From contig JALGPY010000004.1 of NCBI GenBank assembly GCA_023055425.1, positions 114,307,504-114,371,503 on the forward strand: a stretch of DNA of 64,000 nucleotides, read 5' to 3'. The DNA is from Linanthus parryae. Its lineage: Eukaryota; Streptophyta; Magnoliopsida; Ericales; Polemoniaceae. The position numbers were made by a program, and so were the translations under genes. A model generated the notes under the pieces. The model made no database searches, was not told the DNA's origin, and worked only from the letters and a program-made list of their open reading frames with translations. Positions 19,466-64,000 of the stretch are shown piece by piece. Position 1 is the first letter of the stretch. The number at the start of each line of letters is the position of its first letter.

Positions 19466-19530
19466 CAGCAGCAATGTCTTCTTCCTCTTCTCTCTTTCTC
19501 TGTGTGAAGAGATGTACGATGATGGCACGA

Positions 19531-19540
19531 GTTATTTATA
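19531..19540 (-). promoter_or_regulatory. TATA-like element of the sulfotransferase gene
   Basis: On the minus strand this reads TATAAATAAC. It lies about 66-75 bases upstream of the chosen ATG at 19,465. Transcription about 30 bases downstream would start near 19,500 and exclude the alternative upstream ATG. Confidence 0.55.
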
Positions 19541-24646: not shown

Positions 24647-25066
24647 TTTGAAGGTTTCGCCAGAGGAGGGACTGTTTCGGTTTGGGCGGGAATGTGAGGA
24701 ATCGCTACCAATTGAGGAATTATAGTATTTCAGAACTTAACTAATTAAGGAAATTATTATCAATTGATTGAACGATATATTTAAAAAAAAAAAAAAAAAA
24801 AAAAAAAGAAAGGAAGGGCAGCCATGGCAATACATCAAATTGGTGTGCAGATCGCAGGTGGCTCAAAGTCAACAATCGATTCAGATTCGCTTGGAACAGA
24901 AAATTGAACATACGGTTAGTTTAATCTCTCAATCCTCATCTGATGATATGGTTTTTGCTCAATATATGGAGGAATTTGAAAAAATGATGGGGATAAAGAA
25001 CCCTAGAATTGAGGAAGTGTCTGAAGAACAGGTGGTGGTGGCTGACCTTCAACAGCCACAAGATCA

Positions 25067-36262: not shown

Positions 36263-37270
36263 TTAGAACTTCAAGCCCCTGTCACTGAACTTGTGCTGAA
36301 TGATCTGGTCTAGTTGTTTTCCCATCTCAGCATTCAAATAATTCTTCCAGTCTCCAACCTTACCCTTTCTGAAGTACGTGTTGTTCTCAATAACCAACGA
36401 GCCGATCCCTACTTGATGCTTCCCTTTTTTGTTCACATCCAAATTGCTCAACTTGTCGAAACTACAAAAGTCAACTATTTCCTTCACAACCCCTTCCTTC
36501 TCCTCCTCCAAAGTGAAGGGACAACCTATAAACTCAGCAATCTTTTTAACATAAAATGCAGTATCTACCATCATATCTTCATATTTCAATACAAGTACCT
36601 TGTCAGGGGACTCCAAACTCGCTTTCAAGTAGCCTGAAACATGATCCCAATAGGGTCCTTGCTCAGCCTCTCCTTTACAGAATATCTCAAAAGCCTCTTC
36701 AATCCGAGTAATGGTTTCAGTGCCAGGTACTAACTTGCTCAAGAAATGCCATAGAGAAATGAAAGCATCCTTTGGGTCCCTGTGAATGTACACAATCTTA
36801 CACGCATTGGAGGCAATGATAGATTTTGGCAAGGATGAATAGGGAATGTGTGTGGCTAAGAGTGGATGTTGCGATGGATCATTCCTAGTTAGATGGCCGC
36901 GAGAAAAATCTCTCTCAAGCACAGGGATACAATCGTTTGGTAAGCAGGTAAGTAGAGGGCTGCTTTCTGAAATAATATTATTATGATCCGCACCATACTT
37001 ATAATGGGTTCGGGTTACAACAGCAAAAACAAGAGCTTTGAGCCAATTTGTGCCAGATTTCACAGCGCTGCAGAGAAAAATGTCATCAGGTTGAGCGGTG
37101 AAGTGTTGTTGAACTGATATGATTTCTTTAATCATCCAGTCATTGTACCAGAAGCCTTCATACAAGTAGAGTTTAGGAAAGAGTACTCCACTAGTTGTAG
37201 GAAGGGTTTCGATGTTCATCTGATCATCTCCTTCATGCTCCTTAACAACATTATTGTTGCTGGATTCCAT
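36263..37270 (-). CDS. Cytosolic sulfotransferase with altered PAPS loop
   Basis: This is an intact, intron-less 335-residue SOT. It keeps the catalytic histidine (ATHIPYSSLP), the 3'-phosphate site HRDPKDAFISLWHF, PYWDHVSGYL, VLVLKYEDMM and the C-terminal RKGKVGDWKNYL. The 5'-phosphosulfate loop reads AVKSGTNWLKAL (about residues 69-80), where the family and its neighbour have PKSGTTWLKAL. The conserved Pro is Val and the second Thr is Asn, while the Lys is kept. It is clearly related to the SOT at 18.4 kb but well diverged. The changed loop may alter PAPS binding or rate, and the acceptor is unknown. A likely 5'-UTR intron (donor after 37,553, acceptor before 37,317) would join a TATA-linked leader to the ATG. 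Confidence 0.9.
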   Translation of the reverse strand: MESSNNNVVKEHEGDDQMNIETLPTTSGVLFPKLYLYEGFWYNDWMIKEIISVQQHFTAQPDDIFLCSAVKSGTNWLKALVFAVVTRTHYKYGADHNNIISESSPLLTCLPNDCIPVLERDFSRGHLTRNDPSQHPLLATHIPYSSLPKSIIASNACKIVYIHRDPKDAFISLWHFLSKLVPGTETITRIEEAFEIFCKGEAEQGPYWDHVSGYLKASLESPDKVLVLKYEDMMVDTAFYVKKIAEFIGCPFTLEEEKEGVVKEIVDFCSFDKLSNLDVNKKGKHQVGIGSLVIENNTYFRKGKVGDWKNYLNAEMGKQLDQIIQHKFSDRGLKF

Positions 37271-37631
37271 CTCTCACAATGAGTGTATGTAATTGACCAG
37301 TTGCGCGCACCAGGTAACTTGCCTAAACAATTTCACACATTAAAGAGATCGTCAATAATAAATGAACTTTGATCTGAATATTAACAAAATTATAAGGCTA
37401 AAAGAGGTCAACAAATAAGTAGTATATGGATATATACATGAAAACATGATATGCAGTTTCTTTTCCCTGATGGAGGAATTCAGTCAAGTAGTAGGAATAG
37501 TTATGAAGAAACTCATAATGCATGCTAAATGAAATAGCTAGACAAACCTCACCTTCCTGATTCTGTGTGCTAGCCTTCCAATGGATCAGAATGAAGAGGC
37601 ACACGAACAATTTTTTGATTGACCAGCCACT

Positions 37632-44239: not shown

Positions 44240-45546
44240 TCTTCTACATGAAGGACTGAAAGTTCTTGATTGCTAATCTTCGTTCTCTAGTGCCAATAAA
44301 GCTAGATGGCACGAATTACTTGATCTAGAAAGCTCAACTAGTTACAATTTTACAAGCCAACAATCTGTTTCACTTTCTTACAGACACTACTACTGTTCCT
44401 ACACCACAAATTTTGGACTCTTAGTCTGGCACACTTGTTAGAAATCCTGCATTTCCTGAATGGTTTGCCATTGATCAGCATCTCAAAAGTTGTCTCTATG
44501 CTTCTATTGCACCTTCTGTACTGCCTTCTGTGTTGCATCTTCAACATGCTTATCTCATTTGGAATGCCTTGTCTCAAATATTTTCTTCACTATCAAGGTC
44601 ACATGTTCATCAGTTGAAATTACAACTTAGTACAGTTGTGAAAGGTTCTAGCTCAATGACTGTCTTTCTTGACTCTATCAAAGCACTCACTGATCAATTG
44701 GCTCAAGTAAATGAGTTCATCTCTGAGGATGATCTCATCATTCACATTCTTAAAGGCCTACCACCTGAATATGACTACTTCAAGGATGCTATCAGGATAA
44801 GAGGTTCTCCAATTTCTGTTGCTGAACTAAGTTCTCTTTTGGTATCTGAGGAATTGCATCACACTACTTCCTCCTCTCTCAAGAACCTCACAATAGGCAT
44901 TCCAGCTTCACTTGGATCTTCTTCTGGAGCTACTGAACTACATACTGCCTATCAAGCTGTTAAGTATAAGCCTAATTACTAGGCCAAGAACTATCACTCT
45001 CCCAAATATCAGCATTACTCCAAGCCTTCTAGTGGTTATTCCTCCAACACTTACAATGCCTCTCCAAGGTCATCTACTGTTGCTGGAATTCTTGGCAAAC
45101 CTCCTTCTACTGGCTCTCTCTCTTACGATATTACTTGTCAAATTTGTGGAAGAACAACGCATACTGCACTAGATTGCTGGTACAGACTTGACACATCCAA
45201 ATTTGCTAGCACTAAACCTAAGAGAGCATATACTGCAACTGCTTCTTCTTCAGACTCAGATCCCTTCACTCAACCATGGCTGCTAGACACTGGTGCTAAC
45301 AACCATGTGACACACAATGATCATCATTTGACTCATCTGCAACTTTATCATAGAGGTGACACAGTCACTATTGGTAATGGTAATGCCTTGCCTATTCACT
45401 CTATTGGTCATTCTACTCTTCCTGTCTCTTCTAATGTCTCTTTTAAGATACCTACTGTATTTTACTCTCCTGCTCTATCTGCCAATTTGCTCTATGTGTT
45501 TCAGTTTACATCTGATATTGATTGTAGCATCACTTTTAATGCTCAT
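44240..45546 (+). pseudogene. Copia gag and protease region
   Basis: The gag part shows KLDGTNYLI, PEWFAIDQHLKSCLYASI, LKLQLSTVVKGSSSM and HILKGLPPEYDYFKDAI. The zinc knuckle is CQICGRTTHTALDCW near 45,140, and the protease active site is WLLDTGANNHVTHNDHH near 45,280. Three TAG stops interrupt it (after TNYLI, after QILDS and after KYKPNY). The frame ends at the Gypsy insertion within the target word CTCAT. Confidence 0.9.
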
Positions 45547-46173
45547 TGTGCACAAGAGATTTCGGCGGGGAGACCTCCGTGTACACCGTATGTAGAGGAT
45601 CAGAGATCGCACAGGAAGAGTGGGGTTGTGTGTAGGGAGAGAGTAAGGCAGTAGTAATGTCTGAGAGAGAGACAGAGGTTCGGCAGAGCTTCCGCGTATG
45701 GCAGGTGTGTCCTCCTTTGTATGGAAAGGGTAACGGCCTATATATAGCAGAGAACGTGACCGTTGTAGTGTGGTTAATGCGCCCATTAATGGCGGCTTAA
45801 TTAGCTTAACCATAACGGCACGTTCGTCCGAGTATATAGGAACCGTTACAGCACGTTGTGCGCGAATACCGGAACCGTTACGAGGTTGACCGGGTTTGAC
45901 CGGATTGACCGGGTTTATGGAGCTCGTGCCATAAATCTCTCAAAGCAGTTACTAAAGGTCGCGTGCGGGCTTGACTCGCACGCGACAGGGCTTACTCTAG
46001 CCTCCAAACCACTAAGTCCCTACAAGTCCCGTGCAGTGGTATGCGAGGGCTCTGTCTCGCAGCCCCCACATGGATCAGCTCGGCTGGTGATCCAGTGTGT
46101 GTGGAGAACAATATGGTGTGCTGGATGGTTGCCACGTGGCCAAGATCTGTCAGCTCAGAAAGCACTATCTACA
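45547..46173 (-). repeat. 3' LTR of the Gypsy element
   Basis: 627 bp, TGTAGATAGTGC to TTGTGCACA on the minus strand. A near-palindromic CTATATATAG at 45,740-45,750 could act as TATA box in either direction. Direct repeats of TTGACCGG near 45,885-45,915 and the inverted pair GTCGCGTGCGGG/CTCGCACGCGAC at 45,958-45,986 stand out. Confidence 0.97.
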
Positions 46174-46190
46174 TTAGCCCCCTTTCTGCG
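46174..46190 (-). promoter_or_regulatory. Gypsy polypurine tract
   Basis: On the minus strand, GCAGAAAGGGGGCTAA runs up to the LTR start TGTAG. This is the expected plus-strand primer site. Confidence 0.8.
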
Positions 46191-46436
46191 CGTGAAGACT
46201 CATAGCTGTATAGACTTCCATGCGCGGAAACCAACATACGCGTCGCCGCCACGCACCAATTCAAATACGGGTAAGTTCAGCCCCCGTGCGTGCCATTATG
46301 ACCTAAAACCCTTAGAGTCGTGCCGTCTGGCCTTTAGGGTTTTAGGCGTGACGTCAGCTTGTCCTGTGATTGCGCGATTCGACGGTGACGGTTGCGATTC
46401 GACCACTGAAAGGACGCAACCCTTCATTGTTTTTGG

Positions 46437-46443
46437 ATAAATA
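46437..46443 (+). promoter_or_regulatory. TATA-like element of the antisense PMD gene
   Basis: ATAAATA lies 264 bases inside the 3' LTR border. A leader exon from about 46,470 could end at ATCCAG|GTAGGC (46,582) and splice to CCGCAG at 46,903, two bases before the ATG. That would be an untranslated first exon with its own intron. Confidence 0.4.
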
Positions 46444-46905
46444 CTTTGTATCCTCCATTGTTGCAAAGCATCACTTCTTTCTCTTAAAGTGAATGGTACC
46501 CGGAGATCTTCGAGAGCAGATTCAGATAATCAATCACCAGTTCAAAACTGCAAATCGTCTTCTCCAACTGTGCATATCCAGGTAGGCTTCGCGAAAACAA
46601 GGTTGGCCTTGTTCAATTTCGATTTAAAATACCAGTGTATGCCTTGAACTGCGTTGAATCTGTAAACCCATAACATATGATCTGTTGAAACTTGTGAAGA
46701 AGCTTCAAGCTTTGGACCCAATTGCAGCTTAATCCTTCAGTAATAAGGACCTTGGATAGGGTTTTGAAATCCCTGATAATGCAACCCTCTAATTTCTGAA
46801 ATCGATACCAGAAACTGTTCATCTTTCTTTCCATAGATCTTGAATTTCGAAATTCAAACTGAGTGTGGCATATTTCTCCCCCCTTTTTCTTGCTCTTCCG
46901 CAGGA

Positions 46906-49900
46906 ATGGCCAAGACAAAAGGAACCAAACCCACCAAGGAGGATGAAGAGATACCCGATCTTCCGCAGGCTTTGTGGCGAAAAGCCCCCTATCTAGGTGG
47001 CAAAGATTTCTATCATGCGAGGGTTAAGGCGAAGAAAATGCCTGCTCCTGTCCCAAATGAGGGATTGCTAACACTGACTCCTCCGGTTAACTCAGCCTTG
47101 CTCGAGTTAATTGGCTCCGAGGATGTGGTTCGATTGGGAATCGAAAATGGGTACTTCCCCTACGCTGCGATTTCTATCCAAGCTTTTGTCCAGAAATTGG
47201 ACTACATGGATGAGTGGATTGACCACGTGTTGACCAATCATGCTGCGACTCTTGATGAAGCCGGCGTATACTTTGCTGTTCGTGCTATGAAGGGTGCTGC
47301 CGTGAAGCTGGACCAGTCCATGCTTCTAGACCTTCTTTCCCGCTACTCACCTGCGACTCACACATTCCACTTTGCTGAGTTCGAGGCTGCCCCCACACTC
47401 GAGGACGTGCATATGCTGTACGATCTTTCTCCCATGGGTGAAGTGGACCCTTTGAGTCCCTTGAGGACGGCTGCGGAGATTGCCTTGTACACGCAGATGG
47501 AGGAATGCCTAGCAGAGGTAAAGAAAATCTCCACCCGGTGGACTACTACCAAAGCCCTTCCAAACTGGCAGTTGGTTGATACGTCTGCGAAGAACACCTG
47601 GAACAAATGGTTGCAATACTTCTTTCGAGACTATGCGAACAGCAGCATCACTAAGAAGCTTCTGAGTGAAGACCTAGAGGCCAAGAATTACGTGGAGGGT
47701 AAAGGCTATCACTTGACCCTTTGTGCTTTCCTCTGTGCCTGGTTGTCGAGGTACTTAATTGACGGTCACCCGCATGATGGGGTCTTCTACCATGTTTTGC
47801 CGCTTGCTGTGAGGCTCGCCCTTGGCCAGAGAGTCGCACTCGGACCCTTGGTCTTGGGCACGCTGTACTATAGGCTTGATTAGCTGGTTCTGGCCATGAA
47901 AGAGTCGCGTGGCCGCCTCGATATACTGACCTTCGTCAACATTTCCTTCTTGACGATGTGGGTCTTCGAGCGATGGCCATCCTATGCTCCAACTGCTCTT
48001 AAACCCGACAAGTGTTGTCCCCCAGGCGAGACGGAGGAGCGCAACAGTGGCAGGGCTGCGAGGTGGTTCGGAGCGAACAATACCAAGTGCGTTTGGAGCT
48101 TGATATGCGACAAACGGAAAGAGTTTACTGCCAGGCCCTATGCCACACGCATTGAGAACGTGCGATGGTTTCCAAAGCTGTACCCCTCTAAGGGTGTTGT
48201 CTTCTCAGAAGAGCTCCTCTTTGAAGAGGGATCACATTTCCATGAGCGCTATCGCGAGTTCTTTTGCTGGTGTCTACGAGGTTCCCTTCCTGCCCTCGCA
48301 GAGCATATTCATGAGCTTGCGCCAAGGTATGAGAGGATTACCGTGGATGTTGACCCCACTCGAGTTTCTCCCCAGTTCGGCTTTGATGCAGTGGCACCAT
48401 CAATCTGGCCCCAGTCCATTATCAGAGGTTGCTATAAGCGCTTGCTAACAAAGGAGTGCAAGACAGTCTTCATGAACAATCTTTCCTTTGAGCAGCCTGC
48501 AGGTACCCGCGAGGGCGGTTGCTCCCAGAACTGGCTCGCATACTGGGTCGCCCAGCAAATGAGGATTGAGACACAGTCGGCCGCTCAGCCAAGTAGAGCT
48601 CCCTTGATCAAGAGAAACTCTTTTCCGTTTCGCCCCAATTGCAGTCTGAGCGAGTCTGAGTATGGTTGCTACTCGTTGTTGGATCATGAGAACCATTTGT
48701 GCCCTGACGTCATTCTGAAGGAAAAGATCGCCGCAGTTAAGAAGGGCGACACGCATGTATTCAGATATAGCGAGACATTTGCTAAGGTAAGCAATTTTTC
48801 GCGTGCGTTAAACTTCTTGATTTTCACATGCTGATGCTTTCATTCTGTACTGTTTGTTGTAGTTTCATGTGCGGAGATTCGCATCTGGTGATCGTTCCAA
48901 GTCATTGGTTAACACCATTGTTGCCACTAGGCGGCAAAAACAGTCGTTCCTGCTAGCATGGAGGATGGACCCTGAGGTCGAAACCAGGATTCGCGCAGTC
49001 ATGAACGCTTTTGCTGACTCGCTGATAGACAATGCTCCGGCCTCGTCTCCTCCCAGAGATGATCCGTCCCCTCCAGCGACTGCAGCGCCGAGAGCGAAGA
49101 GACCCAGGCAAAAGGGAATTACAATTTCTTCCCCTAGAAGTGCTCCAACTTCTCCTCCGGCGAGGTCCTTTTCTATCAAGGATAAAGGCAAAGGCCGCAT
49201 GCCCAGCAAAGTGCGGAAAGAGCTCGCAGTTGAGACTTTCGTTCCATTCAACCAGGAGGAAGAAGGAGAGAGGCAGGAGCCCAGAGAAGGTGATGAAGAA
49301 GAAGAAGAAAGAACAGTTGTGATGCATGAGGAAGAATCAGGAGGTACCTCCGTCGCGTTTCCCTTCTCATTATCGTAATTCTTTTGCAGTTCTTTCTTAA
49401 ACCAATCATATCTTCGCAGATGATGATGATGATGAGATTATCGGTGGCCTTTTGGCCAAGAGACAAAAGAGAGATACCCATTCCGGCATTCCAGACGATC
49501 CCATAAGCAAGGACGTTCTTGCTGAGTCCCGGAAGACAGCCGCGGAAGCTGCTGAAAGGAGAAGGCAGCGGGAGGAGGAGGAGCTCGAGCGTGTGAGACA
49601 GCGGAGCCTCGAAGAGCAACATGTTGACGACTTAGTGCGTCGAGTTGACGAAGAAGATGTGCTTCCCGAAGTAGTGACTCCTCAGGCGGAGGAGGAGGAT
49701 GCGGTCCCGGAAGAGGATGCAGCAACCCTGGAGCAAGCCCAAGCAGACTTTGAAGAAATCGCAGGCGGCGATAAAGGTGAGATCTTCAATCTCGCAGTAA
49801 CTTATAGAGATGTTATTGTGGGTGCGTTAAAGCATGGTGTGTCAAAGGCTGACATTCGCCGTTGGCTAGTAGGCAAGTGCGGAGAACCTTTAGGTAATCA

Positions 49901-51203
49901 TTTGAGCGATATGCATGTACTGGACCTTAGCCACTTGAAACAGAAACCTGACTGGTTTCTTTGCGTCCCAGGTCACGCTCATTTTAAGGACCTGCTTAAT
50001 GAGGACACACTAATAGAGCATGGTTCCACGTCTTTAGTGTATGAAGAAGACACTTCAATCCCACCTTCGCGTGGAGGTGCTTGCTCTTAGCTTTAGTAAA
50101 GATAGTAAAATAACTTATAATACGAGTTACCTTATACTATCGCATTTTGCATCGCAGGGGCTGATGATGAACCAGTGTTCGAGCAAAGGAATCAAACTTC
50201 TGCGTCCTATGTCCCAGTGCCGAGTTCCCATACCGAGAAGACCGTCGCAGCTGCTGAATACGCAGGAGAGCCTCTTGAGGACATCATCGAACTTTCTGAT
50301 GATGCTGAAGCTGACGCTGTGCTAATGGAGGAAGATGTCCATACTGGCGCTGAGGAAGTAAGAACGAGTGCTGCTGATGCTTCCGCATCTGAGAGCGTCC
50401 CACGCCAAGCATTTTCGGCCGTCACTTCGCCTCCGGCGGTGACTGAGTCGGCGGCACCTCTTCCTGCGTGGAGCTTTTGGGGCTCGCAGGTTGGGAATGC
50501 AGTCGCAGCTGGTGCGGCTTATACTCTTCCTCCAAACTATGAGGGATTAGAGCTCGCAGCTGACAAGAGAGCCATGGAGCAAGGGCAGTCTTCAACTACT
50601 CCAGCAATGCGCATTCCTTCTCTTCGTGAGATTCTTGAAGGAACTGGTAAGTAGTGATTCGCTGTTTGTATCTCGCATTATTCGTTTGCGAATTTGGTAG
50701 CATAACTTAGATTTGACATTGCTTTAGGTTTGAAGCAAACTGATGTGGACTGGCTAGTTCGGATGCGCCTCACCTACCCCCGATCATTTGCGAGATCTCT
50801 GGAGATAGGGACCTTCGACAGGAGGCTGTTTCTAACCGAAGCCATTTGGATTTTGGAGCAGCTGTCTGCGGCGACGCCTGCGACCATTTCTGTCCAGAGT
50901 GCCGAATTGCTTTGTGGCATGTGCCAAAATCTTCTTACCAAAGTTCAAGGCAGACTAGGTTTCAGATTTCTTATGAAAAGAGTCACGCTGATTCGCGCAG
51001 CCGTAACTTTGAAGCCCGGCCATCAAAACCTCGCAGCTGAGAAGCAGAAGGTGGAGCAGCAAAAGCAAAAGGTTGACGAAGCTCTGAAGCTCTATCATGA
51101 GATGAATGCCAGGTGCGGGCAATTGCAGCAAGAAGTGGAGCAGGTAGAGAAGCTGAGCCATCAGTTCGCGCCCCATGACTCCTTGATCAAGAATTTGCTT
51201 TGA
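46906..51203 (+). pseudogene. Spliced antisense gene for a plant mobile domain (PMD) protein
   Basis: Five coding exons join in frame: 46,906-48,786, 48,863-49,343, 49,420-49,776, 50,158-50,646 and 50,728-51,203, about 1,227 codons. All introns have GT-AG ends and phase fits at each. Residues 1-600 are a PMD/aminotransferase-like mobile domain: LLSRYSPATHTFHFAEFEA, PTLEDVHMLYDLSPMG, AYLSRYL-like YHLTLCAFLCAWLSRYLIDG and RLALGQRVALGPLVLGTLY. The rest is acidic and disordered (PPRDDPSPPATAAPRAKR, DDDDDE, EEEDAVPEEDAA), then GTFDRRLFLTEAIWILEQL and a C-terminal coiled coil (EKQKVEQQKQKVDEALKLY). One in-frame TAG (47,881-47,883) breaks it, a likely CAG change. Exon 3 could instead run on to a weaker donor at 50,076, and the bases in between stay open. 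PMD proteins are linked to silencing and to transposons; the function here is unknown. Confidence 0.85.
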
Positions 51204-52600
51204 CTTTTTGAATTTGAAAAATAAGCAAGGAAATGGCTGGAACATTAATGTAATGTTTGAAACATTAATGTAATGTTGCTAGGGTTTCTCCCCCCTTTTT
51301 TTTAACAACAAGAATCAACTTGCCCGTTTTGCCCTTTCCGGGATTTGATAGGATATCTCTGTGCATATCCAATTATGACATCAGCAATTGATACTCTGTT
51401 TGATTTTCGCGCTAATTTCTCGGAAGATAAGCACGCTTTCGTTGGGAAGTCCATCCGAATCATGACTATCCGTCATTTATTAGGATACGCAACTGAATCA
51501 TCGTAGCCTTTAGTAGGGTAATTGATCGTTACCGCTTTTCAAGGCGTAAGTGATTGGCCTTACCCTCTTTTCAAATTCTGCTGACTCATCTTTGGCAACT
51601 GAAGAGTCGACACAGGGTCTATATAAACCCTGTCTTTGCCATTTGGGTTCTTCATCCCAAAAATGTGCTTTGCCGTGAGTCCTTACGACTGCTGGCTTCA
51701 ACGCTTGTTTTTCGTTGATTCATGGCAACTTCAAGTTATGAATCCTGAGTTTGCGCTTTGTGCTGTAGAAATATTTTCCAAGATCCGCTTTATGAGGCTT
51801 ATTGCTTCTTTATAACCATCATAGAGAAGATGGAGATGATATCTCATGTGTGTTCGAAGAATTTTCTTCGTGTATTATGTGTGCAGGTCATGTTTCCGGT
51901 CGCCTCCCGGTGAGGTGCAGCGCCGTAGTGACCGTGCTACCGTCTCGTAATGAGCGGCGGAATTCTCCTCCAGCATCCCTGGAGGAGGATTTCTTGCCTC
52001 TTCGTTCTTGAACTCAGGGGGCTTGTCAATGCGCTTGTCAATCATGACAAGGAGCCCAATACCAGAGGAATGACTGCTTCCCCTGTTCTGGGCGACTGTG
52101 TGCGCCGGAACAGGAGATTCCTCCGGTACATATCTTGATCAGACAGGGGTCTTGTCAGATCCTGAGATCTTGGACATAGGACCACCCAGACCATTGCCGC
52201 CATGGACGCAGCTAATGGCGAGTTGATCTCTTCGCAGGAGCATCCTACTTGCTACAGATCTTTGGCCGCAGATCTGCGTGTCGCATGGCCGATGTTAGGA
52301 CCGTTGGGTTCATCCTTTTCAGTCAGGATTCCCGTGGTGTGTCTCTGCTGGCTTGTCAGCTACTTTTCGAATGTATTGTAAGCCATGTTGGCTGCGTAGT
52401 TAGATTTGAGCTTTTTCGCTTGTAAGCTGCTATCTAGACAGATAAATTGTAAGTCTTTTTGACTCATAATGATAAATAGCTTTTTGCATTATCTGCTGTC
52501 TTGTTACAACAAAATACAGTTTCGCATGCGTATCGGCATATTTCGCCTTGTATAATGTTATATACATGCTTCACATTTGCTATCTGCCATATCAATTCGC
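51204..52600. other. Non-coding part of the Gypsy element
   Basis: This stretch lies between the antisense gene and the tandem array and has no long open frame. A short direct repeat (AACATTAATGTAATGTT, twice) lies at 51,240-51,275 just after the antisense stop. From about 52,480 the array's words (GCATTTGC, GATCGTT) begin to appear in decayed form. Confidence 0.6.
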
Positions 52601-52619
52601 ATATGTTTTATTAGATCGT

Positions 52620-53715
52620 TCGAGATCGTATTTGCGCAGTTGTGCCATCTTGGCAGATGGGCTTGTGATTTGCTTTCCGATGTAAGTGCGAGTGTTATCT
52701 CATCATATATACTTTTGTAGATCACTTAAGATCATTTTACACACTATTGCTATCGCATTTGTATAATGCTGCTATCGCCGCAGATAGGCTTGGAAGATCC
52801 ATTAAGATCATTTTCCGTATGAGTTGCTATCGTGGCCGATAGGCTTTAGTAGATCAATTAAGATCGTTTTTCGTATGAGTTGCTATCGTGGCCGAGAGGC
52901 TTTAGTAGATCAATTAAGATCGTTTTTCATATGAGTTGCTATCTTAGCAGATAGGCTTTAGTAGATCAACTAAGATCGTTCTTTTGCATGAGTTGCTACC
53001 GTAGCAGATAGGCTTTAGAAGATCAATTAAGATCGTTTTTGGCGTAGGCTGCTATCGTGGCAGATAGGCTTAGAGGATCAATTAAGATCGCATTTGCATA
53101 GGCTGCTATCGTAACAGATAGGCTTATAGGATCAATTAAGATCGCACTTGCATAGGCTGCTATCGTAACAAATAGGCTTAGATGATCAATTAAGATCGCA
53201 TTTCGCGTGAGTTGCTATCGTGACAGATAGGCTTAGATGATCACTTAAGATCGCATTTCGCATAGGCTGCTATCGTGACAGATAGGCTTAGATGATCACT
53301 TAAGATCGCATTTCGCATAGGCTGCTATCGTGACAGATAGGCTTAGATGATCACTTAAGATCGCTCTTCGCATAGGCTGCTATCGTGACAGATAGGTTTA
53401 GATGATCAATTAAGATCGCATTTCGTATGAGCTGCTATCGTGACAGATAGGCTTAGATGATCACTTAAGATCGCATTTCGCATAGGCTGCTATCGTGACA
53501 AATAGGCTTAGATGATCAATTAAGATCGCATTTCGTATGAGCTACTATCGTGACAGATAGGCTTAGATGATCACTTAAGATCGCATTTCGCATAGGCTGC
53601 TATCGTGACAGATAGGCTTAGATGATCAATTAAGATCGCATTTCGTATGAGCTGCTATCGTGACAGATAGGCTTAGATGATCAATTAAGATCGCATTTGC
53701 ATAGATTGCTATTGT
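52620..53715. repeat. Tandem array of about 55-bp units
   Basis: About 18 to 20 units of roughly 55 bases follow one another. Each holds GATCA(A/C)TTAAGATCG, CATTTCGCATAGG and CTGCTATCGTGACAGATAGGC. Units at 53,210-53,690 are nearly identical, while those on the left are more varied (TAGTAGATCAATTAAGATCG, GAGTTGCTATC). Each unit holds the short inverted pairs GATC..TTAAGATC and CTATC..GATAG. Tat elements often carry such arrays upstream of the 3' LTR, and some have given rise to satellite DNA. Confidence 0.95.
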
Positions 53716-53933
53716 GGTGGATGGCCCATTGTTAACAGTAATAACAAACTAAAATGAAGCAAAGTTGACATCCAGAAATATGAAGTTCTCGTTTGGGAGA
53801 ATTTTCTTGTTATAATGCTCTCATATGGGAGAGACGAGATTACAATCCTCTCATATGGGAGAGGAGATTGTGTAGATCGTAGCCATACAAGACATTAAGC
53901 GACGTTATAATAAAACGCATGAAATGAGAGAAG

Positions 53934-56855
53934 TCAGGGATAGTACTTCTTAATCCAGCGCATGTTGACTGAACTCGGGGTTGAGGTTGTACCGTGCAAC
54001 CTTCGTATGCTGCAGTAGCCACTGTCGAAGACTTCTGTGACTTCGAAGGGTCCTTCCCAATTGGCTGCGAACTTCGGGTGAGCCGCTTCTCGCATGCAGT
54101 GGTCAGATGCGCGCAGGACCAAGTCTCCAACTGCGAAATCTCTTCGCTGGACCGTCTTATTGTAAGCGCGAGCGATCCTTTCTTGATACCGCTTGTTGGT
54201 CCTTTTGGCCTGTTCTCGCTTTTCCTCCAGCAAGACTAAGTCATGATCACGTTGATTTTCGTAGAGTGCGTGGAAGGCCAATCTTGCCGAATTGACTCTC
54301 ACCTCCGCAGGTACCACAGCCTCGGCCCCATAGCATAGTAAGAACGGTGAGGCCCCCGTGGGTGTCCTCGGGGAGGTTCGGTAGGCCCACAGAGCTATGC
54401 TTAGAGAATCAGCCCACTTCTTGTGGTCATCTGTGACCATCTTGCTCAAAATCCTCAACAGCGTTTTGTTGGTCGCTTCGGCTTGCCCGTTCCCCTTCGG
54501 ATAGTAGGGGGTGGAACATATTTGCCTGATATTGTACTCTGCTAACTTCGCAGCTACCTGGCGATTAACAAAGGGAGTACCGTTATCTGAAAGAATGGTG
54601 TTTGGAATTCCGAACCTGCATATGATGTTTTCTTGAATGAAGTTGACCACAACTAGCGCATTTGCCGTCTTCAGTGGTATTGCCTCCACCCATTTGGTGA
54701 ATAGCTCAGTTGCAGTGAGAATAAAATGATTCCCGTGTGACGTTGGTCGGATGGGACCAATGAAGTCCAGAGCCCATGTGTAAAATGGCCATGGTGTTCC
54801 CAATGCATGTAGATCCACGGCGGGAGCGTGCACTAGGTTTCCTTTGAATTGGCACTCCTGGCAGCGTCGCACTTTGGTGCGGCAATCGACCTCCATTGTG
54901 GGCCAGAAATATCCAATTGAGAGGAGCTGCCTGCATAATTTCGCACCTCCTTGGTGTTCCACCTGATGAGAAAGGTCCATGACTTCTTGTGCTTCTTTGC
55001 CGTCTAGACATCGCAGCAAGTTGCCCTCATGACCTCTTCGCCAAAGCAGGTTTTCTTGTACTACGTATCGAGATGCTTTCCTCTTCAATTTCTCGGCTTC
55101 TTTTCTCGATTCGGGCACGGTGCCCTGGGTGAGAAAATCAAAGAGTGGCTTCCTCCAATCCGTGTCATCATCAGTTAGAGCGATGAGTAGAGAATCTTTT
55201 ATTAGTGCGCAACTTTCGCACTTCCCTTGTATCAGGGCAGCAGCTGTCGACATATCCGGCCAATGAATGCCGTATCTCTGAGCCTTTCGATAGATTGACA
55301 CCTCGCTTTCTCCGCAAGCATGTTGGTGAATCTTTTCCAGCAGCAATTGTCCCTCGTGCTCGGAAACACATTGCATGAGTATTCCGCCAGGGCCTTTGTA
55401 GTAAAGGGTGTTGTCATGTATGCAATGCCCTTTCGTCAGTGCCCAGCTTTCGCTGCTTGTGCCTTCTGCAATAGCTCGTAGGACTGCTTTTCTCCAGTCC
55501 GTGTCATTCATGTGTTCGTCGTCGCACGCATCTTCTGTCAATGCCGACGATGTTCGCACTTCGATGGAGATTCTTGCGGGACATTTGTCTGTGCTGACCT
55601 TGGATCCCAAGGTGGCCAAAGCATCTGCATGCCTATTGTCTGCTCGGGGCTTATGCTCGTACCTCACATCGCAGAATTGCTGTACTAACTTTTGCACTAG
55701 AGTGCGGTAAGACAGAAGGTTAATCTCCTTAAAACCATACTCGCCCGAGGCTTGCTTGACGATCAGCTTGGAATCTCCCATGACCGTCAGATTGCTTACT
55801 TCCAAATCCTTTGCTGCGCGCAGTCCCGCTATGAGGGCTTCATATTCCGCCTCATTGTTGGTGACTGCAAAGTCAAGCTTTGCGGACATCTTTATGACCT
55901 CCCCATCTGGCTTGGTCAAGACTATCCCAATGCCTCCGCCTTTCCTTGTTGACGACCCGTCGAAATGGAGCGTCCAATAGGGTACGTCGATTGCATAGAT
56001 TTCAGGTCCCTCGAGTTCTTCTTCGATTACGGGCTCGTGGCTGTTGTCGGGGAATTGTGCCAACAGATCCGCTACCGCCTGCGACTTGATCGCTCGCGGT
56101 CGCACGCATGTGATATCGTATTGAGAGATGGTCATGTACCATTTCGCCAATCTTCCTCCAGGAGTAGTGTGGGTTAGCAGATATCGTATGGGATCACTCT
56201 TGGTGACCACTACTACTTTGTGCGATGCAAAGTAATGTTTCAATTTCTCTATTACGAAGAACAAAGCAAGGCAATGACGTTCGATGTCTGTGTACCTTGA
56301 TTCAGCAGGTTGCACAATGCGAGAGATGTAGTAGATAGGCCTCTCCTGGCCTTCGTACTCCTGAGCCAAGAGTGCTCCTATGGACCTCCTCGTTGACGTC
56401 AGGTATAGCAGAAGCGGTGATCCCAGTTGAGGCGCGATCATTATCTTTGAGGACGTCAGCAGATCCTTCAGCTTTTCGAATGCAGCTTCGTGCTCCGGAG
56501 CCCAGCTGTATACGGCATCTTTCTTGAGAAGGGCACTAAAACAGCAGGTGATTTCGGCAATCGCTGGGATGAATCTCCGCAGATAGGATAGCTTTCCCAA
56601 AAATGTCTTCAAGGAACTTTGGTTATGGGGCGGCGTCATGCCGGTTATGGCTGATACTTTCGCAGGGTCAGGCTCGATACCTTGGCGATGAACTACGCAT
56701 CCCAAGAACTTCCCTGATGTTACCCCAAATGCGCATTTCATGGGATTCATCTTCAGTTGAAAGCGTCTACATCTATTGAATACTTTCCTCAAATCCGCGA
56801 GGTGATCTGCTTCTTGCTTGGATTTGACTACAAGGTCGTCCACATAGAATTCCAC
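53934..56855 (-). CDS. Gypsy pol: end of RT, RNase H, second RNase H, integrase
   Basis: An open frame of 973 residues. It starts right after a TAA (56,858-56,856) with FYVDDLVVKSKQEADHL, so the RT catalytic box is at its very start. RT-connection and the usual RNase H follow (ALLAQEYEGQERPIYYISR). Then a second, archaeal-type RNase H has YWTLHFDGSSTRKGGG, TNNEAEYEALIAGLRAA, VMGDSKLIVKQ and NRHADALATLGS. Two zinc-binding modules come next, HACGESE...GKCESCALIK and VEHQGGAKL...RRCQECQ. The integrase core has WALDFIGPIRPTSHGNHF, ILSDNGTPFVNR and PKGNGQAEATNKTLLRI (D, D, E present), and the frame ends near SVNMRWIKKYYP. It is intact in itself but lacks its upstream half. No chromodomain follows. 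Confidence 0.93.
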   Translation of the reverse strand: MEFYVDDLVVKSKQEADHLADLRKVFNRCRRFQLKMNPMKCAFGVTSGKFLGCVVHRQGIEPDPAKVSAITGMTPPHNQSSLKTFLGKLSYLRRFIPAIAEITCCFSALLKKDAVYSWAPEHEAAFEKLKDLLTSSKIMIAPQLGSPLLLYLTSTRRSIGALLAQEYEGQERPIYYISRIVQPAESRYTDIERHCLALFFVIEKLKHYFASHKVVVVTKSDPIRYLLTHTTPGGRLAKWYMTISQYDITCVRPRAIKSQAVADLLAQFPDNSHEPVIEEELEGPEIYAIDVPYWTLHFDGSSTRKGGGIGIVLTKPDGEVIKMSAKLDFAVTNNEAEYEALIAGLRAAKDLEVSNLTVMGDSKLIVKQASGEYGFKEINLLSYRTLVQKLVQQFCDVRYEHKPRADNRHADALATLGSKVSTDKCPARISIEVRTSSALTEDACDDEHMNDTDWRKAVLRAIAEGTSSESWALTKGHCIHDNTLYYKGPGGILMQCVSEHEGQLLLEKIHQHACGESEVSIYRKAQRYGIHWPDMSTAAALIQGKCESCALIKDSLLIALTDDDTDWRKPLFDFLTQGTVPESRKEAEKLKRKASRYVVQENLLWRRGHEGNLLRCLDGKEAQEVMDLSHQVEHQGGAKLCRQLLSIGYFWPTMEVDCRTKVRRCQECQFKGNLVHAPAVDLHALGTPWPFYTWALDFIGPIRPTSHGNHFILTATELFTKWVEAIPLKTANALVVVNFIQENIICRFGIPNTILSDNGTPFVNRQVAAKLAEYNIRQICSTPYYPKGNGQAEATNKTLLRILSKMVTDDHKKWADSLSIALWAYRTSPRTPTGASPFLLCYGAEAVVPAEVRVNSARLAFHALYENQRDHDLVLLEEKREQAKRTNKRYQERIARAYNKTVQRRDFAVGDLVLRASDHCMREAAHPKFAANWEGPFEVTEVFDSGYCSIRRLHGTTSTPSSVNMRWIKKYYP

Positions 56856-56858
56856 TTA

Positions 56859-57537
56859 TTTATGCATCATGTCGTGGAACAGGGCCATCATGGCCCGCTG
56901 ATAGGTTGCACCCGCGTTTTTGAGCCCGAACGGCATCACTGTGTAGTTGAACACCCCCACCGGAGTGATGAATGCAGTTTTCCGCGCGTCCTCGGGGTCC
57001 ATCTTGATCTGGTTGTACCCACTGAAGCCATCCATGAAACTGAACATGCGGTGGCCCGCTGTTGAATCGATACGCAAATCGATGTTGGGCAGTGGAATCG
57101 TCCTTGGGGCAGAAGCGATTGAGATCTCGGAAGTCCACGCAGATGCGAAGCTGTCCGTTCTTCTTCACCACTGGCACGATGTTGGCCAGCCATGTGGGAT
57201 GATGATTCGGCTCTATGAATTTGGCATTTAGGAGTTTGACAATCTCCTGCTTGATTTTCACGTTAAGCTCCGGCCTGAAGCTTCTTGTGCTATGCTTTAC
57301 CGGTTTAGACCCTGGAATGATGTCTAAGCGGTGCATAGTGATGCTTGTATCCAGTCCCGGCATCTCATCGTACTCCCATGCGAACACATCCTTGTATTCA
57401 GTTAGGAGCTGTAGCAGTCCTTGCTCCTCCTCGCTTGTGAGGTCCGTACTTAGAAAGACTGGCCTTTTCTTTTCCTCGTTCGGGCTGAGGAACACTTCCT
57501 TTAGCTCTTGCTTTTGTGGTCTGGGCGTATCTTCCAT
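56859..57537 (-). pseudogene. Gypsy reverse transcriptase, N-terminal half
   Basis: The first part (57,537 to about 57,105) reads RPVFLSTDLTSEEEQGLLQL, YKDVFAWEYDEMPGLD, FRPELNVKIKQEIVKLL and LRICVDFRDLNRFCPKDD. A one-base loss just after CPKDD shifts the frame. The continuation at 57,077-56,859 reads FMDGFSGYNQIKMDPED and FGLKNAGATYQRAM. A TAA separates it from the YVDD box. An in-frame TAG lies upstream at 57,579-57,577. The core residues are otherwise conserved. Confidence 0.92.
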
Positions 57538-57669
57538 GCACTCAGGTGCTTCTTTGAGTTTCTCGTCCAGAGCGCCCTAGATTGGCTTTTCCGTTAGCGC
57601 AATTTGCTCGATTTGATTGATTTGCCCAGGGATATCCCCATGCCCGTGTGAGGACATCCCCGCGCACCT

Positions 57670-58686
57670 TCATATGCGATAGCATTTCTTCCCATTGGCG
57701 TAGAAGCTCTCTATCTCCTTGCCTTCGGGGTCATGTTTTGCGATTCTCTTCAGAGTGTACACATTCTTTCGATGGTATGGGATACGCGGCGCCTCTTTGC
57801 GCGTAGGCGGCTTTTCTTTGGCGTCTTCCCTTGTCACCATTACACCCGCAGGTGACTGGTCCTTGATGTCCTCCCAGAGAGGCAAAGGAGTAGGGTTGAA
57901 TGGTCCCGGTGTTTGCTCGTCCGCCATCTCGGTGAACCACACTGCCTCGCTAAGATGTGCTTCATCCAAGTTGAATGGATTCGTTGAAGCCGGTATCTCG
58001 ACTACTCTGTCGTTCCAGATAACTTTCATAACCTGGTGAGCCGTTGAAGGAACCGCGTCGAAGCGATGAATCCAGGCTCGACCTATGATCATGTGATACG
58101 TGGTGTTTGTGTCTATGACATAGAACTTTGCTGAGCACTTGATTTTGCCAATCTGAACGCCCAGGCGGATCCATCCGATCGTCATCCTAGAGTCGCTTCC
58201 GAATCCCATCAGCGGAGATGGACGCCTGACGATCTTGTGCTCGGGGATCCCTGCTAGCTTCAGTGTGTGGAGCGAAACGACGTTGACCGCTGCTCCTCCA
58301 TCGACGAATGCTCGTTTGAACTCGACGCCATTGATGATGGCTGTCACGTACAGAGGCCTCTAGTGGCTCGCATCTGTCTTCTTGTCGCTGGCAGAAAAGG
58401 TCATAACCTTTTCTGTAGAGCGAGACGTCCTGATGACTTTCCCGTTGGAAACTACAAGATCTTCCTCATAGTCCTCCGCTATCCTCAAGATTGCTTTCGT
58501 CATATCTGTCCGGCACTTCTCGGAGAAGTTCATCTCGTCGAAGAATCTGCTAAAGCCGTGCGACCCCTTCATCCGATCGGCACGTTCGTCTTCTGTGTTC
58601 ATACTGTAGTCCTCGTCATCATGGACCTCGGAGATGATGGGTAGACCATCCTCTGCGACTTCTTCCAAGTCGACGATCGAGATCAT
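57670..58686 (-). pseudogene. Gypsy protease region
   Basis: Two open parts in the same frame are divided by a TAG at 58,362-58,360. The upstream part is acidic and ends TFSASDKKTDASH. The downstream part holds the aspartic protease with FKRAFVDGGAAVNVVS (active-site Asp followed by GG, as is usual in Tat elements) and NTTYHMIIGRAWIHRF. It ends at a TGA (57,672-57,670). Confidence 0.88.
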
Positions 58687-58704
58687 GGCAACCTCTTTGC
58701 CTTT

Positions 58705-60306
58705 TCAGTCTTGCTCCGCATGGGCAGGAAGCGGATTGTTGCGCACATCCTTCCTGTGATCGCTGACAATCAGCTCACCGTTCTTCATCTTCTGGTCGAA
58801 TGTAAACCTGAGCTTCTTACATTCCGCTGTGGGGTGCATGACCTTGCCGTGGTACTCGCACCACTTAGGGTCCCTCACCATCTCCTTGGAGGGTATCTTC
58901 TCGAGCGGCGGTAGGACACCGTCCTTGCGCCACTGCCTGCAGAGGTCGCTTGCCTCCTCTACCGAACATGGCAGAGGTGGTACGTCGAAGTTCACAACCT
59001 TCGCTTGCTTCTGGGGTGAAACTGTATTGACCTCAGCTTCGCGTCCCCTCTTGTAACTGAATCTCCCGATCTTGTAGGTGGTGCCGCTCGAAGGTCGCTC
59101 CGGAGCGTTCTTCTTTTTCTGCCTCTCGACTATAGGCTCGATGTTCTTCGTGCATTCAATCAGCTTTGAAAACGTAGGTGTTTGCAAATTGATGAGCATA
59201 CCTTTGTATTCGTCTCGCATGCACTGCAGGCATATCTCTACGAGCCGTCTTTCAAGCATTGGATCTTTGCACTCCAAGGACTTCGCCCTGAATTTCTTGA
59301 TGAAAGTGATCCCATCCTCCTCGCGCTTCTGATACATCCGCGAGAGATGGATCATTGTCACCTTTTCTTACATCTGGAAGAACTCGGTGTAGAACTTCTG
59401 GACCATGTCGTCCCAAGTCTTCACGGATCCGGCTTCCAACGTTCGGTACCACTTGTACACTACGTTCCCCAAAGATTTTGGGAATTCTCGCATCAGCAGT
59501 TTGGGATCAGCTCCGTATGGCCCCATGACATCAATGAAACGCATGACATGCTCATGAGCGTTCCCGTTGACATCCTCGAACTTGTCCCATTTAGGAGCCT
59601 TATACCTCGCCGGGTTAGGCATGAGATAGATCTCCCGCGGGATGGGTGGATCGTTGTCTAGCTTCGGGATAATGGTATCCGCGAATGACTGGTGAGCCAG
59701 AATAGTGTCCATGCGCTTTTGCAGAGACGTCATGCATTCTGGGATGCTTCCCTCGGTAGCAGGTGGAGGGGTTGCCGCAGACGGAGGCGACACATATGCC
59801 GCCGAAGGATTGGGGACATATTGGCTGCTCGCATTGCCCCAGATCGCCGTTGGAGGAGGCAAGGGGTACATCAAAGCCGAGTTGGATGCCAAAGCCGAAG
59901 GTTGAGGAGTGTGAGCAGTGAGAGGCAACATCTGAGCTGTTGACCCCTGAATCGAAGGCAGCTGCGTAGTTGCCGGCGGAGTCTGCAGGTTAGGGTTGGG
60001 AGGTGTGGTGGACACTCCCAATCCTGGAGCGGTAGGCCCTCCTCCTCCTTGAGAGACGGTGGTGGCTGTTGAAGGATTTGGTGCAAGGGTGCCCAGAACG
60101 GTCAAGATCCGTTCTAGCTGCGCAGACTGAGCTTTGAGAGCTTTCGCCTGACCTTGGACGGTGGCATACAAGGATTCTAACGTCGGTGCCTCGCTGGGGG
60201 TCGCAGGAGTACGGCGGGTCTCCTCTCCCGAGGCAGTTTCTGTGGAAGGTGATCTGTTGCTAACATCATCCTCCTGAGACATGGTTGCTTTTGTTGGTAA
60301 GTTCAC
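58705..60306 (-). pseudogene. Gypsy gag
   Basis: The ATG at 60,306 lies just inside the primer-binding site. The N-terminal half is low complexity and rich in Pro, Thr and Ser. The capsid part has KAPKWDKFEDVNGNAHEHV, MREFPKSLGNVVYKWYRTL and DDMVQKFYTEFF, then after a TAA (59,370-59,368) LSRMYQKREEDGITFIKKF. A WCEYHGKVMHPTAECKKLR motif (zinc-knuckle-like, CxxH...C) follows near 58,850. The frame ends at a TGA (58,707-58,705). All parts lie in one frame, so only stops break it. Confidence 0.92.
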
Positions 60307-60319
60307 GTCGGGTTCACCA
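60302..60319 (-). promoter_or_regulatory. Gypsy primer-binding site
   Basis: On the minus strand TGGTGAACCCGACGTGAA starts three bases after the 5' LTR. TGG fits the CCA end of a tRNA. I could not assign the tRNA with certainty. Confidence 0.75.
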
Positions 60320-60322
60320 AAA

Positions 60323-60949
60323 TGTGCACAAGAGATTCCGGCGGGGAGACCTCCGTGTACACCGTATGTAGAGGATCAGAGATCGCACAGGAAGAGTGGG
60401 GTTGTGTGTAGGGAGAGAGTAAGGCAGTAGTAATGTCTGAGAGAGAGACAGAGGTTCGGCAGAGCTTCCGCGTATGGCAGGTGTGTCCTCCTTTGTATGG
60501 AAAGGGTAACGGCCTATATATAGCAGAGAACGTGACCGTTGTAGTGTGGTTAATGCGCCCATTAATGGCGGCTTAATTAGCTTAACCATAACGGCACGTT
60601 CGTCCGAGTATATAGGAACCGTTACAGCACGTTGTGCGCGAATACCGGAACCGTTACGAGGTTGACCGGGTTTGACCGGATTGACCGGGTTTATGGAGCT
60701 CGTGCCATAAATCTCTCAAAGCAGTTACTAAAGGTCGCGTGCGGGCTTGACTCGCACGCGACAGGGCTTACTCTAGCCTCCAAACCACTAAGTCCCTACA
60801 AGTCCCGTGCAGTGGTATGCGAGGGCTCTGTCTCGCAGCCCCCACATGGATCAGCTCGGCTGGTGATCCAGTGTGTGTGGAGCACAATATGGTGTGCTGG
60901 ATGGTTGCCACGTGGCCAAGATCTGTCAGCTCAGAAAGCACTATCTACA
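60323..60949 (-). repeat. 5' LTR of the Gypsy element
   Basis: 627 bp, identical to the 3' LTR except at two positions: T or C in GAGATT(T/C)CGG near the inner end, and A or C in TGGAG(A/C)ACAAT. The CTCAT target duplication follows at 60,950. Confidence 0.97.
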
Positions 60950-60954
60950 CTCAT

Positions 60955-62040
60955 CAATTTGTTATTCAAGACAATCAGTCCAAGACAATTCTATGTACAT
61001 GCCCATGTGAAAATGGTCTTTATCAGTTTTCTGCTGCTGTCCATTCTCTGCACTCTCCTACCTCCTCTTCTATGTCTTCAATGGCTTATTCTGCTACAAT
61101 TACTCATGACACCTCTTTGTGGCATCAAAGGTTGGGGCATCCTGCATTTCCAATTCAGCATTGTCTTCAGCATTGTCTAAATAGGAAATTTGTGTCTCCA
61201 ACCTTGTTATGTAATTCTTGTTCTGTGTGCAAGGCACATAAACTTGTATTTACTCTTTCTGTCTCACATGCCACATCTCCATTTGAATTTGTTCATTCAG
61301 ATGTTTGGGGACCATCTCATGTTTCTTATTTTCAACAATATAAATACTATGTACTCTTTTTAGATGACTTCTCCAAATATTGTTAGTTTTATCCACTTAA
61401 GCTCAAGTCTGAAGCTTACACTGCTTATTTGCATTTCACTGCCATGGTTAGTACCCAATTCAATGCTACTGTTAAGACTTTCATAACTGACAATGGTTCT
61501 GAGTTTGTTAACACTGATTTTGCATTATACCTTCAATCTCAGGGTACTATATACCAAACATCTTGTCCTCACACTCCCCAGCAAAATGGGAGAGTTGAGA
61601 GAAAACGCAGACACCTTATGGAAACAGCACTTACCTTACTATCTCATGCCAAACTACCACCTATTTTTCGGCTAGAAGCTGCTATCACTGCAAATTTTCT
61701 TATCGATAGGCTTCCAAAGAAGTCATTTTCCTTGGTTTCTCCTTATGAAATTTTATTCAAAGAAACACCAGATTATTCTTTTATCAGAGTATTTGGTTGT
61801 CTCTGTTATCCATGGCTCAAACCCTATACTTCTACAAAATTACATCCCAAATCTACAAAGTGCATCTTCTCGGGTTATTGTCCTCATTCAAAAGGGTATA
61901 GATGTCTTTATATTCTCACTACGGTAGTTTACATTTCAAGACATGTGGTCTTTAATGAATCTCAATTTCCATCCATTCCTGATTCTTCCCCTCTTTCCTT
62001 TAAAACTTCATCCTACACTTCAGATTGGGTTTTCTTGTAG
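60955..62040 (+). pseudogene. Copia integrase region
   Basis: The reading continues from the protease after the Gypsy insertion. The GAG-pre-integrase zinc site has SLWHQRLGHPAFP and LCNSCSVCKAHK. The integrase core has FVHSDVWGP, ITDNGSEFVNTDF and PQQNGRVERKRRHL (D, D, E all present), then FGCLCYPWLKP. TAG stops lie after FSKYC (61,384) and after TSDWVFL (62,038). Confidence 0.92.
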
Positions 62041-63832: not shown

Positions 63833-64000
63833 TGTTAAGCCTAAGGGTAGCTAGGTGTATTTTAGCCACTTATATGTTACTGTGCTATATCAGCATTATT
63901 GTAAATTTCAGGGGTCGGTGTGTAATTAGGTGCATGTATATATTCATCTTCTGTAACATAATTTAGTTAATCAATTGAATAGATATTTTCCCTCTCTCTC
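63833..64000 (+). repeat. 3' LTR of the Copia element, cut by the window end
   Basis: It starts TGTTAAGCCTAAGG after the purine-rich GAGGAGGCA. Its 168 visible bases match the 5' LTR with about 11 substitutions and one indel. Confidence 0.93.

Follow-up and report, generated by a model that had tools for sequence, protein, structure and literature searches.

We identified a plant mobile domain (PMD) gene lying antisense within a recently inserted Ty3/Gypsy element of the Tat clade, in an apparently spliced arrangement of five coding exons. The reading we favor, at a probability of roughly 0.7, is that the element bears this as a self-promoted, spliced accessory gene that would modulate its own transcription or silencing. 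The gene is confirmed at the DNA level, where its element, orientation, domain, open coding chain and intron-like gaps are all observed; from these we infer a promoter, splicing, a nuclear site and a role in silencing. Coordinates are positions within the window, the whole stretch of 64,000 nt that was analyzed (position 1 being its first letter), and the features are as follows.

45547-46173, minus strand: 3' LTR (left end), 625/627 match to 60323-60949, TSD CTCAT at 45542-45546
46432-46581, plus strand: putative promoter (TATA-like GATAAATA at 46436) and putative untranslated exon, by eye
46582-46903, plus strand: putative 5' UTR intron (GTAGGC ... CTTCCGCAG), about 33% T, by eye
46906-48786, plus strand: coding exon 1, carrying the PMD (aa 127-500) by Pfam, with an in-frame TAG at 47881-47883
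48787-48862, plus strand: intron 1, 76 nt, phase 0, from frame joining and T content
48863-49343, plus strand: coding exon 2, basic cluster AKRPRQK, from frame joining
49344-49419, plus strand: intron 2, 76 nt, phase 1, poor donor GTACCT, from frame joining and T content
49420-50076, plus strand: coding exon 3, net charge -26 (acidic), with AKRQKRD as a basic cluster close to the start, from frame joining
50077-50157, plus strand: intron 3, 81 nt, phase 1, poor donor GTGCTT, from frame joining and T content
50158-50646, plus strand: coding exon 4, acidic (net charge -20), from frame joining
50647-50727, plus strand: intron 4, 81 nt, phase 1, donor GTAAGT, from frame joining and T content
50728-51203, plus strand: coding exon 5, C-terminal heptad pattern, TGA end, from frame joining
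52752-53698, no strand assigned: tandem array of a 55-bp unit, 17.2 copies, in the interval from pol to the antisense gene, by TRF
53934-60282, minus strand: gag-pol, broken in this copy, from Pfam, tblastn with seven plant pol proteins, and in-frame stops
60323-60949, minus strand: 5' LTR (right end), from LTR pair comparison, TSD CTCAT beyond 60949

The Gypsy element spans 15.4 kb and is nested within a Copia element. Its two LTRs of 627 bp each differ at two sites and are bounded by the TSD CTCAT at 45542-45546 and again just past 60949; the insertion is recent. The positions of the PPT and of the PBS stretch fit an LTR element; in Ogre elements the PBS matches tRNA-Arg. LTRs, TSD and a protease-RT-RH-INT order, with protease matches below the Pfam cut-offs, identify the element as Ty3/Gypsy, and eight pol relatives, plant or unnamed, align at 45-52% identity. 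According to Pfam, 56855-53937 codes for the end of RT, RNase H, a second RNase H and integrase (RT_RNaseH 146-246, RVT_3 298-415, rve 690-786). The second RNase H of such elements scores as PF13456. Because this second RNase H precedes integrase, and its placement between RH and INT is the rule for the clade (PMC6317226), we assign the element to Tat (Ogre/Retand type), in agreement with a first-pass annotation of this DNA. In this copy the gag-protease-RT frame of gag-pol contains five stops, and gag-pol has in addition one frame change and one later stop; among the stops, one could mark a natural boundary. The window also holds a LINE at 24-29 kb and a Copia pol.

The antisense gene lies in the interval from pol to the 3' LTR, on the plus strand, opposite to the minus-strand gag-pol. 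Joining its five exons across four short GT-AG introns (76, 76, 81 and 81 nt; phases 0, 1, 1, 1) yields one CDS of 3,984 nt, including the final stop, that is interrupted by a single in-frame TAG at codon 326 (47881-47883). The in-phase exons and GT-AG introns of the first-pass annotation thus stand at the sequence level. Its description of the gene as complete does not, since the stop falls inside the PMD and this copy yields no full protein. The TATA-like box, placed by that annotation just inside the 3' LTR, sits about 260 bp inward of the inner edge of that LTR and outside the LTR proper.

Exon 1 matches the PMD profile, as had been expected. The portion up to the stop alone (46906-47880) scored 74.4 bits against PF10536 (E = 1.3e-20), and substituting X for the stop raised this to 94.8 bits (E = 7.6e-27, profile positions 5-294 of 347), both above the gathering threshold of 34.9 bits. 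By profile score, then, the domain is genuine. Searching both PMD pieces against solved structures gave nothing significant (best E 0.6 and 0.67), and AlphaFold applied to the first piece with no alignment was uninformative (mean pLDDT 38.8). The conceptual protein of 1,327 residues has basic clusters, an acidic middle encoded by exons 3 and 4, and C-terminal heptads whose pattern is matched by only 5 of 1,256 windows of the same protein. The acidic tail reported earlier is accordingly present, and the coiled coil reported with it is possible. Judged from its sequence, the protein is probably nuclear.

We scored the longest coding chain attainable when as many as four introns, each 60-130 nt long with GT-AG ends, are allowed. 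The antisense region gave 2,319 coding nt, compared with 789 or fewer in 60 dinucleotide shuffles. Among 804 overlapping readings elsewhere in the window the median was 468, and the 42 that reached 2,319 all begin in the element's gag-pol, the LINE or the Copia pol. As the broken gag-pol was bridged too, we take the result as evidence of coding DNA and rejected it as proof of splicing. Codon scores preferred the model frame in four of the five exons under a host-gene model and in three of five under each of two other models; for exon 2 none of the three models did so.

Introns 1-4 contain 45, 41, 36 and 42% T, exon windows (n = 3,594) have a median of 24% and do not exceed 38%, and 78-nt windows across the seven gag-pol breaks reach maxima of only 18-28%. 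We therefore read the gaps as introns, T-rich and unlike real gag-pol breaks, and predict that all four are spliced. An improbable alternative is that an antisense ORF, once continuous as in other Tat elements, was split by frameshifts and stops, so that the supposed introns are decayed coding sequence. Such decay would accord with the seven breaks in gag-pol of the same copy, which the chain test bridges, with the stop in the antisense frame itself, and with the weak donors of introns 2 and 3. It is harder to reconcile with four gaps that all measure 76-81 nt, end in GT-AG and exceed in T content every gag-pol break, or with LTRs that differ at just 2/627 sites. Other GT/AG pairs likewise preserve frame at all four introns. 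The density of breaks in gag-pol (5 to 7 in 2,114 codons) and in the antisense gene (1 in 1,327) did not differ significantly (Fisher p 0.42 to 0.16).

We also consider it unlikely that the gene is real and spliced with a product of little import, antisense transcription acting through dsRNA and siRNAs that would work either against the element or in step with it. This idea is in print for antisense ORFs (PMC7264820), and PMD genes of tea are reported to give phased siRNAs (PMC10673657), yet a frame of 1,327 codons with a recognizable domain and one stop would be unexpected without past selection on the protein.

Searches for relatives of the PMD protein among 5.8 billion proteins found none at E 1e-3 or at 1e-2. 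As only the candidates sharing most words were scored (7,994 and 7,996), the missing relatives are weak evidence. Part of pol, run as a control against the same protein database, returned 226 matches, so plant pol proteins are present in it; among the matches listed (at least 120), the named organisms were all plants, the best being Camellia sinensis at 51%. No confirmed locus emerged from viral_contigs, searched with the first PMD piece and with the pol alignment, or from genome_contigs, searched with the pol alignment. With no relative of exons 2-5 found, their junctions rest on a single copy. We regard as very improbable a one-off event in which a host PMD gene entered only this element and is not a trait of its family: the protein searches found no relative and the introns resemble those of host genes, but Gypsy-encoded PMDs are reported to form their own clades across angiosperms (PMD-A1 and PMD-A2, exclusive to Gypsy elements; Ikeda et al. 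2017, PMC5418596), a survey of Ogre elements gives PMDs for 57% of them (Neumann et al. 2019), and the position here equals the usual site of the Retand antisense ORF (PMC11963269).

In the favored reading of a spliced accessory gene, transcription would start from the gene's own promoter, just inside the 3' LTR of the recently inserted element, and removal of one intron from the 5' UTR and four from the coding part would give an mRNA for the PMD protein. The introns would persist because the element copies sense RNA, which holds only their reverse complements; this explanation, offered in the first-pass annotation, is plausible, and suggests in turn that entry of the gene, or its acquisition of introns, took place at the DNA level. 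To modulate the element, the protein would perhaps engage the partners that MAIN and MAIL1, PMD proteins of the host, also use (with PP7L). The accompanying proposal of a captured host silencing factor is unsupported, because the authors of the published PMD phylogeny leave the direction open and lean toward domestication of the Gypsy domain by hosts (PMC5418596).

If the splicing is true, the introns place the gene's arrival at the DNA level, which makes its entry datable to that step, and the protein becomes a concrete candidate with which to ask whether PMDs of transposable elements counter host silencing by MAIN and MAIL1. A broader reading is tentative and rather doubtful: that by lying antisense a multi-exon, spliced, self-promoted nuclear gene for a PMD counter-silencing factor can be kept in full by an LTR retrotransposon, inherited and family-wide, its introns hidden from splicing of the genomic RNA. 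Such an accessory gene would carry introns, which an LTR element can hardly retain in its sense genes. Surveys by ORF length (600 bp; 250 codons) would fragment such a gene and miss most tail exons. Antisense genes of Tat elements are not known to have a function, and study of antisense and spliced transcripts is called for in a 2020 review (PMC7264820).

None of the open-access literature that we searched describes a PMD gene that is at once antisense, 3'-placed and intron-bearing. Ogre elements carry their extra ORF in sense orientation upstream of gag, whereas here the gene is antisense, 3' of pol and apparently spliced, and the gag ATG at 60282 lies only 40 nt in from the LTR edge. The element nonetheless shares with the reported Gypsy PMD genes (PMD-A1/A2, Ogre) the same Pfam domain in a Tat-clade Gypsy setting. 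Its layout is that of Retand in that an antisense ORF separates pol from the 3' LTR, tandem repeats lie in that interval and the LTRs are similar in size. Published Retand-type antisense ORFs in the 3' region include those of Silene Retand, maize Grande (gene23, reportedly read from a promoter of its own and giving a nuclear protein; PMC7264820) and rice RIRE2 (PMC7264820, PMC11963269). These encode TRP28 (PF04195), reported in 97% of Retand clusters, whereas here a PMD, apparently in five coding exons, takes its place; TRP28 gave no match in six antisense pieces at E 0.1 or in the joined protein at E 1. The internal region of 14,149 bp and pol-to-LTR region of 7,760 bp also exceed the Retand maxima given in print, 12,869 and about 6,560 bp.

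The Arabidopsis proteins MAIN, MAIL1 and MAIL3 share the PMD with the element's protein; they are products of cellular genes of clade PMD-C, whereas this one is element-borne, with an acidic and possibly coiled-coil tail. HBZ, the antisense gene of the retrovirus HTLV-1, has spliced transcripts. Named in PMC11963269, it is an antisense nuclear regulator of an LTR element, as our gene may be; its protein is unrelated and the likeness is one of analogy only. A role of MAIN and MAIL1 in silencing transposable elements is reported (PMC5418596), and counter-silencing by PMDs of such elements is a printed idea (PMC5418596, for MULEs; PMC8616336). Earlier publications thus already cover PMD genes carried by Gypsy elements, antisense ORFs of Tat elements and a possible role against silencing; what is less usual here is the PMD gene in an antisense, apparently spliced arrangement.

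The plant-mobile-domain (PMD, PF10536) gene runs antisense to gag-pol, between pol and the 3' LTR of a Ty3/Gypsy retrotransposon (the Gypsy element). A Copia element hosts this retrotransposon, forming a nested insertion at 44425-63838.

Features of the Gypsy element and its Copia host
45547-60949, minus strand: Gypsy element, 15,403 bp, delimited by its LTR pair
60282, minus strand: gag ATG of the Gypsy element
53934, minus strand: end of pol of the Gypsy element
52752-53698: tandem array of 17.2 copies of a 55-bp unit, between pol and the antisense gene
44425-44979: Copia gag (Retrotran_gag_2), left of the Gypsy element
61387-62037: part of the Copia integrase, right of the Gypsy element

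The LTRs of the Gypsy element, 627 bp each, differ from one another by two mismatches and no gaps, and the identical 5 bp CTCAT at both flanks form a perfect target duplication. Because the LTRs are nearly identical, this one copy probably inserted recently, about 0.1 million years ago at 1.3e-8 substitutions per site per year. Seven plant pol proteins, picked from 120 pol relatives listed, align along gag-pol. In this copy gag-pol is interrupted by five stops within the gag-protease-RT frame, by a frame change near 57.1 kb and by another stop; one stop among these may instead mark a natural boundary. Since nearly identical LTRs accompany a gag-pol with several breaks, the copy may have moved in trans. 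In the open frame at 56855-53937 (minus strand), Pfam matches follow one another as the RT end, RNase H, another RNase H-like domain and integrase. Part of Neumann et al. (2019, PMC6317226) describes such an additional RNase H, placed between RNase H and integrase, as a mark of Ogre and Retand, angiosperm groups within Tat.

Elsewhere in the window, a LINE-like element (25046-29153, plus strand) has overlapping endonuclease and reverse transcriptase ORFs, and a second, more broken one lies on the minus strand at 5356-7873, with its reverse transcriptase matched at 7115-7873. Two minus-strand sulfotransferase genes (Sulfotransfer_1; 18416-19531 and 36266-37273) are 76-82% alike in ungapped stretches, and a gene block at 8796-12853 is duplicated in tandem at a spacing of about 2.0-2.2 kb, with stretches 84-96% alike. 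An inverted repeat at 15296-15665, with 128-nt arms that are 91% complementary around a 114-nt spacer, is possibly a small foldback element.

The five-exon in-frame chain proposed in the first-pass annotation is present in the DNA: on the plus strand, from an ATG at 46906 to a TGA at 51203, five exons separated by four predicted GT-AG introns join into a frame of 3,984 nt with a single internal stop at codon 326. The PMD assignment likewise held, and by profile match the domain is real. The piece upstream of the stop scored 74.4 bits (Pfam) by itself; when the exons are joined and the stop is read as X, the score rises to 94.8 bits and the match covers profile positions 5-294 of 347. As the match continues beyond the stop, the stop sits inside a formerly continuous domain. 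DUF7745 matched weakly, under its cut-off; exons 2-5 matched no Pfam family at cut-off, and exon 5 gave five sub-cut-off matches, several to helical families. Directly after the gene's stop codon, a short direct repeat (ACATTAATGTAATGTT twice, 51242-51277) may belong to the signals at the gene's 3' end.

We searched for the longest frame obtainable with at most four introns of 60-130 nt, starting near the end of exon 1 and extending over 2,703 nt. The antisense region yielded 2,319 coding nt, compared with 2,292 for the model as annotated; in 60 dinucleotide shuffles the median was 462 and the highest value 789. In 804 overlapping control readings of other window DNA, covering both strands and three phases, the median was 468; 42 reached 2,319 and 44 reached 2,292. 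All 44 begin in one of three places: the Gypsy element's gag-pol on the minus strand (53.6-58 kb), the LINE on the plus strand (24.4-26.8 kb) or Copia pol, also on the plus strand (60.8-61.2 kb). Within the antisense region, the opposite strand gave at most 759 coding nt and one other plus phase gave 1,764. Because the region exceeds its shuffles and comparable control readings start only in these three coding sequences, the antisense stretch is coding. With codon scores trained on three host-gene ORFs, the model frame ranked first of six in exons 1, 3, 4 and 5. Scores trained on exon 1 put it first in exons 1, 4 and 5 and level in exon 3, and scores trained on pol put it first in exons 1, 4 and 5; in exon 2 it ranked first under none of the three. 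The chain test was ruled out as proof of splicing, as it bridged gag-pol breaks too.

Base composition bears on whether the four gaps are introns or damage. Their T contents are 45, 41, 36 and 42%. Across 3,594 exon windows, each 78 nt long, the median T content is 24% and the highest 38%, with 0.4% of the windows reaching the value of the third gap. Real damage in the Gypsy element is unlike these gaps: on the coding strand, T content peaks at 18-28% in 78-nt windows placed across the seven gag-pol breaks, and at 27% in GT-AG stretches spanning those breaks. Compared with the donor and acceptor consensus, the acceptors are good and donors 1 and 4 are near consensus, but donors 2 and 3 are not. 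Other GT/AG pairs also preserve the frame at introns 1-3 and intron 4, so the intron borders given are provisional.

The encoded protein is acidic in exons 3 and 4 (net charge -26 and -20) and has two basic clusters, at residues 706 and 801. Over its final 72 residues, hydrophobic or small residues fill 76% of the a/d positions in the best heptad register, a level reached in 5 of the protein's 1,256 same-size windows. These features suggest a possible C-terminal coiled coil and a probably nuclear site. The predicted structure of the first PMD piece (pLDDT 38.8) gave no usable fold.

On general grounds, the argument that introns survive in this orientation is sound, because reverse transcription copies the sense RNA, in which the introns are without splice signals. 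Unless its introns were gained later, the gene would therefore not have entered the element as a spliced copy. The first-pass annotation raised a captured host silencing factor, and anti-silencing has been suggested for MULE-captured PMDs in passages of Ikeda et al. (2017, PMC5418596); sections of Nicolau et al. (2020, PMC7156037) report that MAIN, MAIL1 and PP7L interact. Between a host-derived gene and an old element gene, the literature leans to the latter. The same portion of Ikeda et al. describes two PMD clades encoded by Gypsy elements only, and an excerpt of an orchid study (PMC9289625) lists ten plant species whose Gypsy consensuses contain PMDs, or 40 with a looser filter. Among the open-access matches listed, none describes an antisense or intron-bearing PMD gene in Gypsy elements.

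Judged from its sequence, the antisense gene appears to be a Tat-type accessory gene, apparently spliced. In extracts of a 2020 review (PMC7264820), the Grande antisense gene is described as having a promoter of its own and a product that is nuclear. The review also urges examination of spliced antisense transcripts, and the word "intron" is absent from its text. Retand antisense ORFs lie between pol and the 3' LTR, with TRP28 in 97% of clusters and tandem repeats in about half, according to portions of Vicient (2025, PMC11963269), in whose text a term search found none of "intron", "PMD" or "mobile domain". In the part of Neumann et al. cited here, PMD occurs in 57% of Ogre elements, and 23% of Retand elements have TRP28. 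The tandem array between pol and the antisense gene resembles those often seen in Retand elements. The gene combines a domain that is best known from Ogre elements with a position, antisense and toward the 3' LTR, for which Retand elements are the best-known example.
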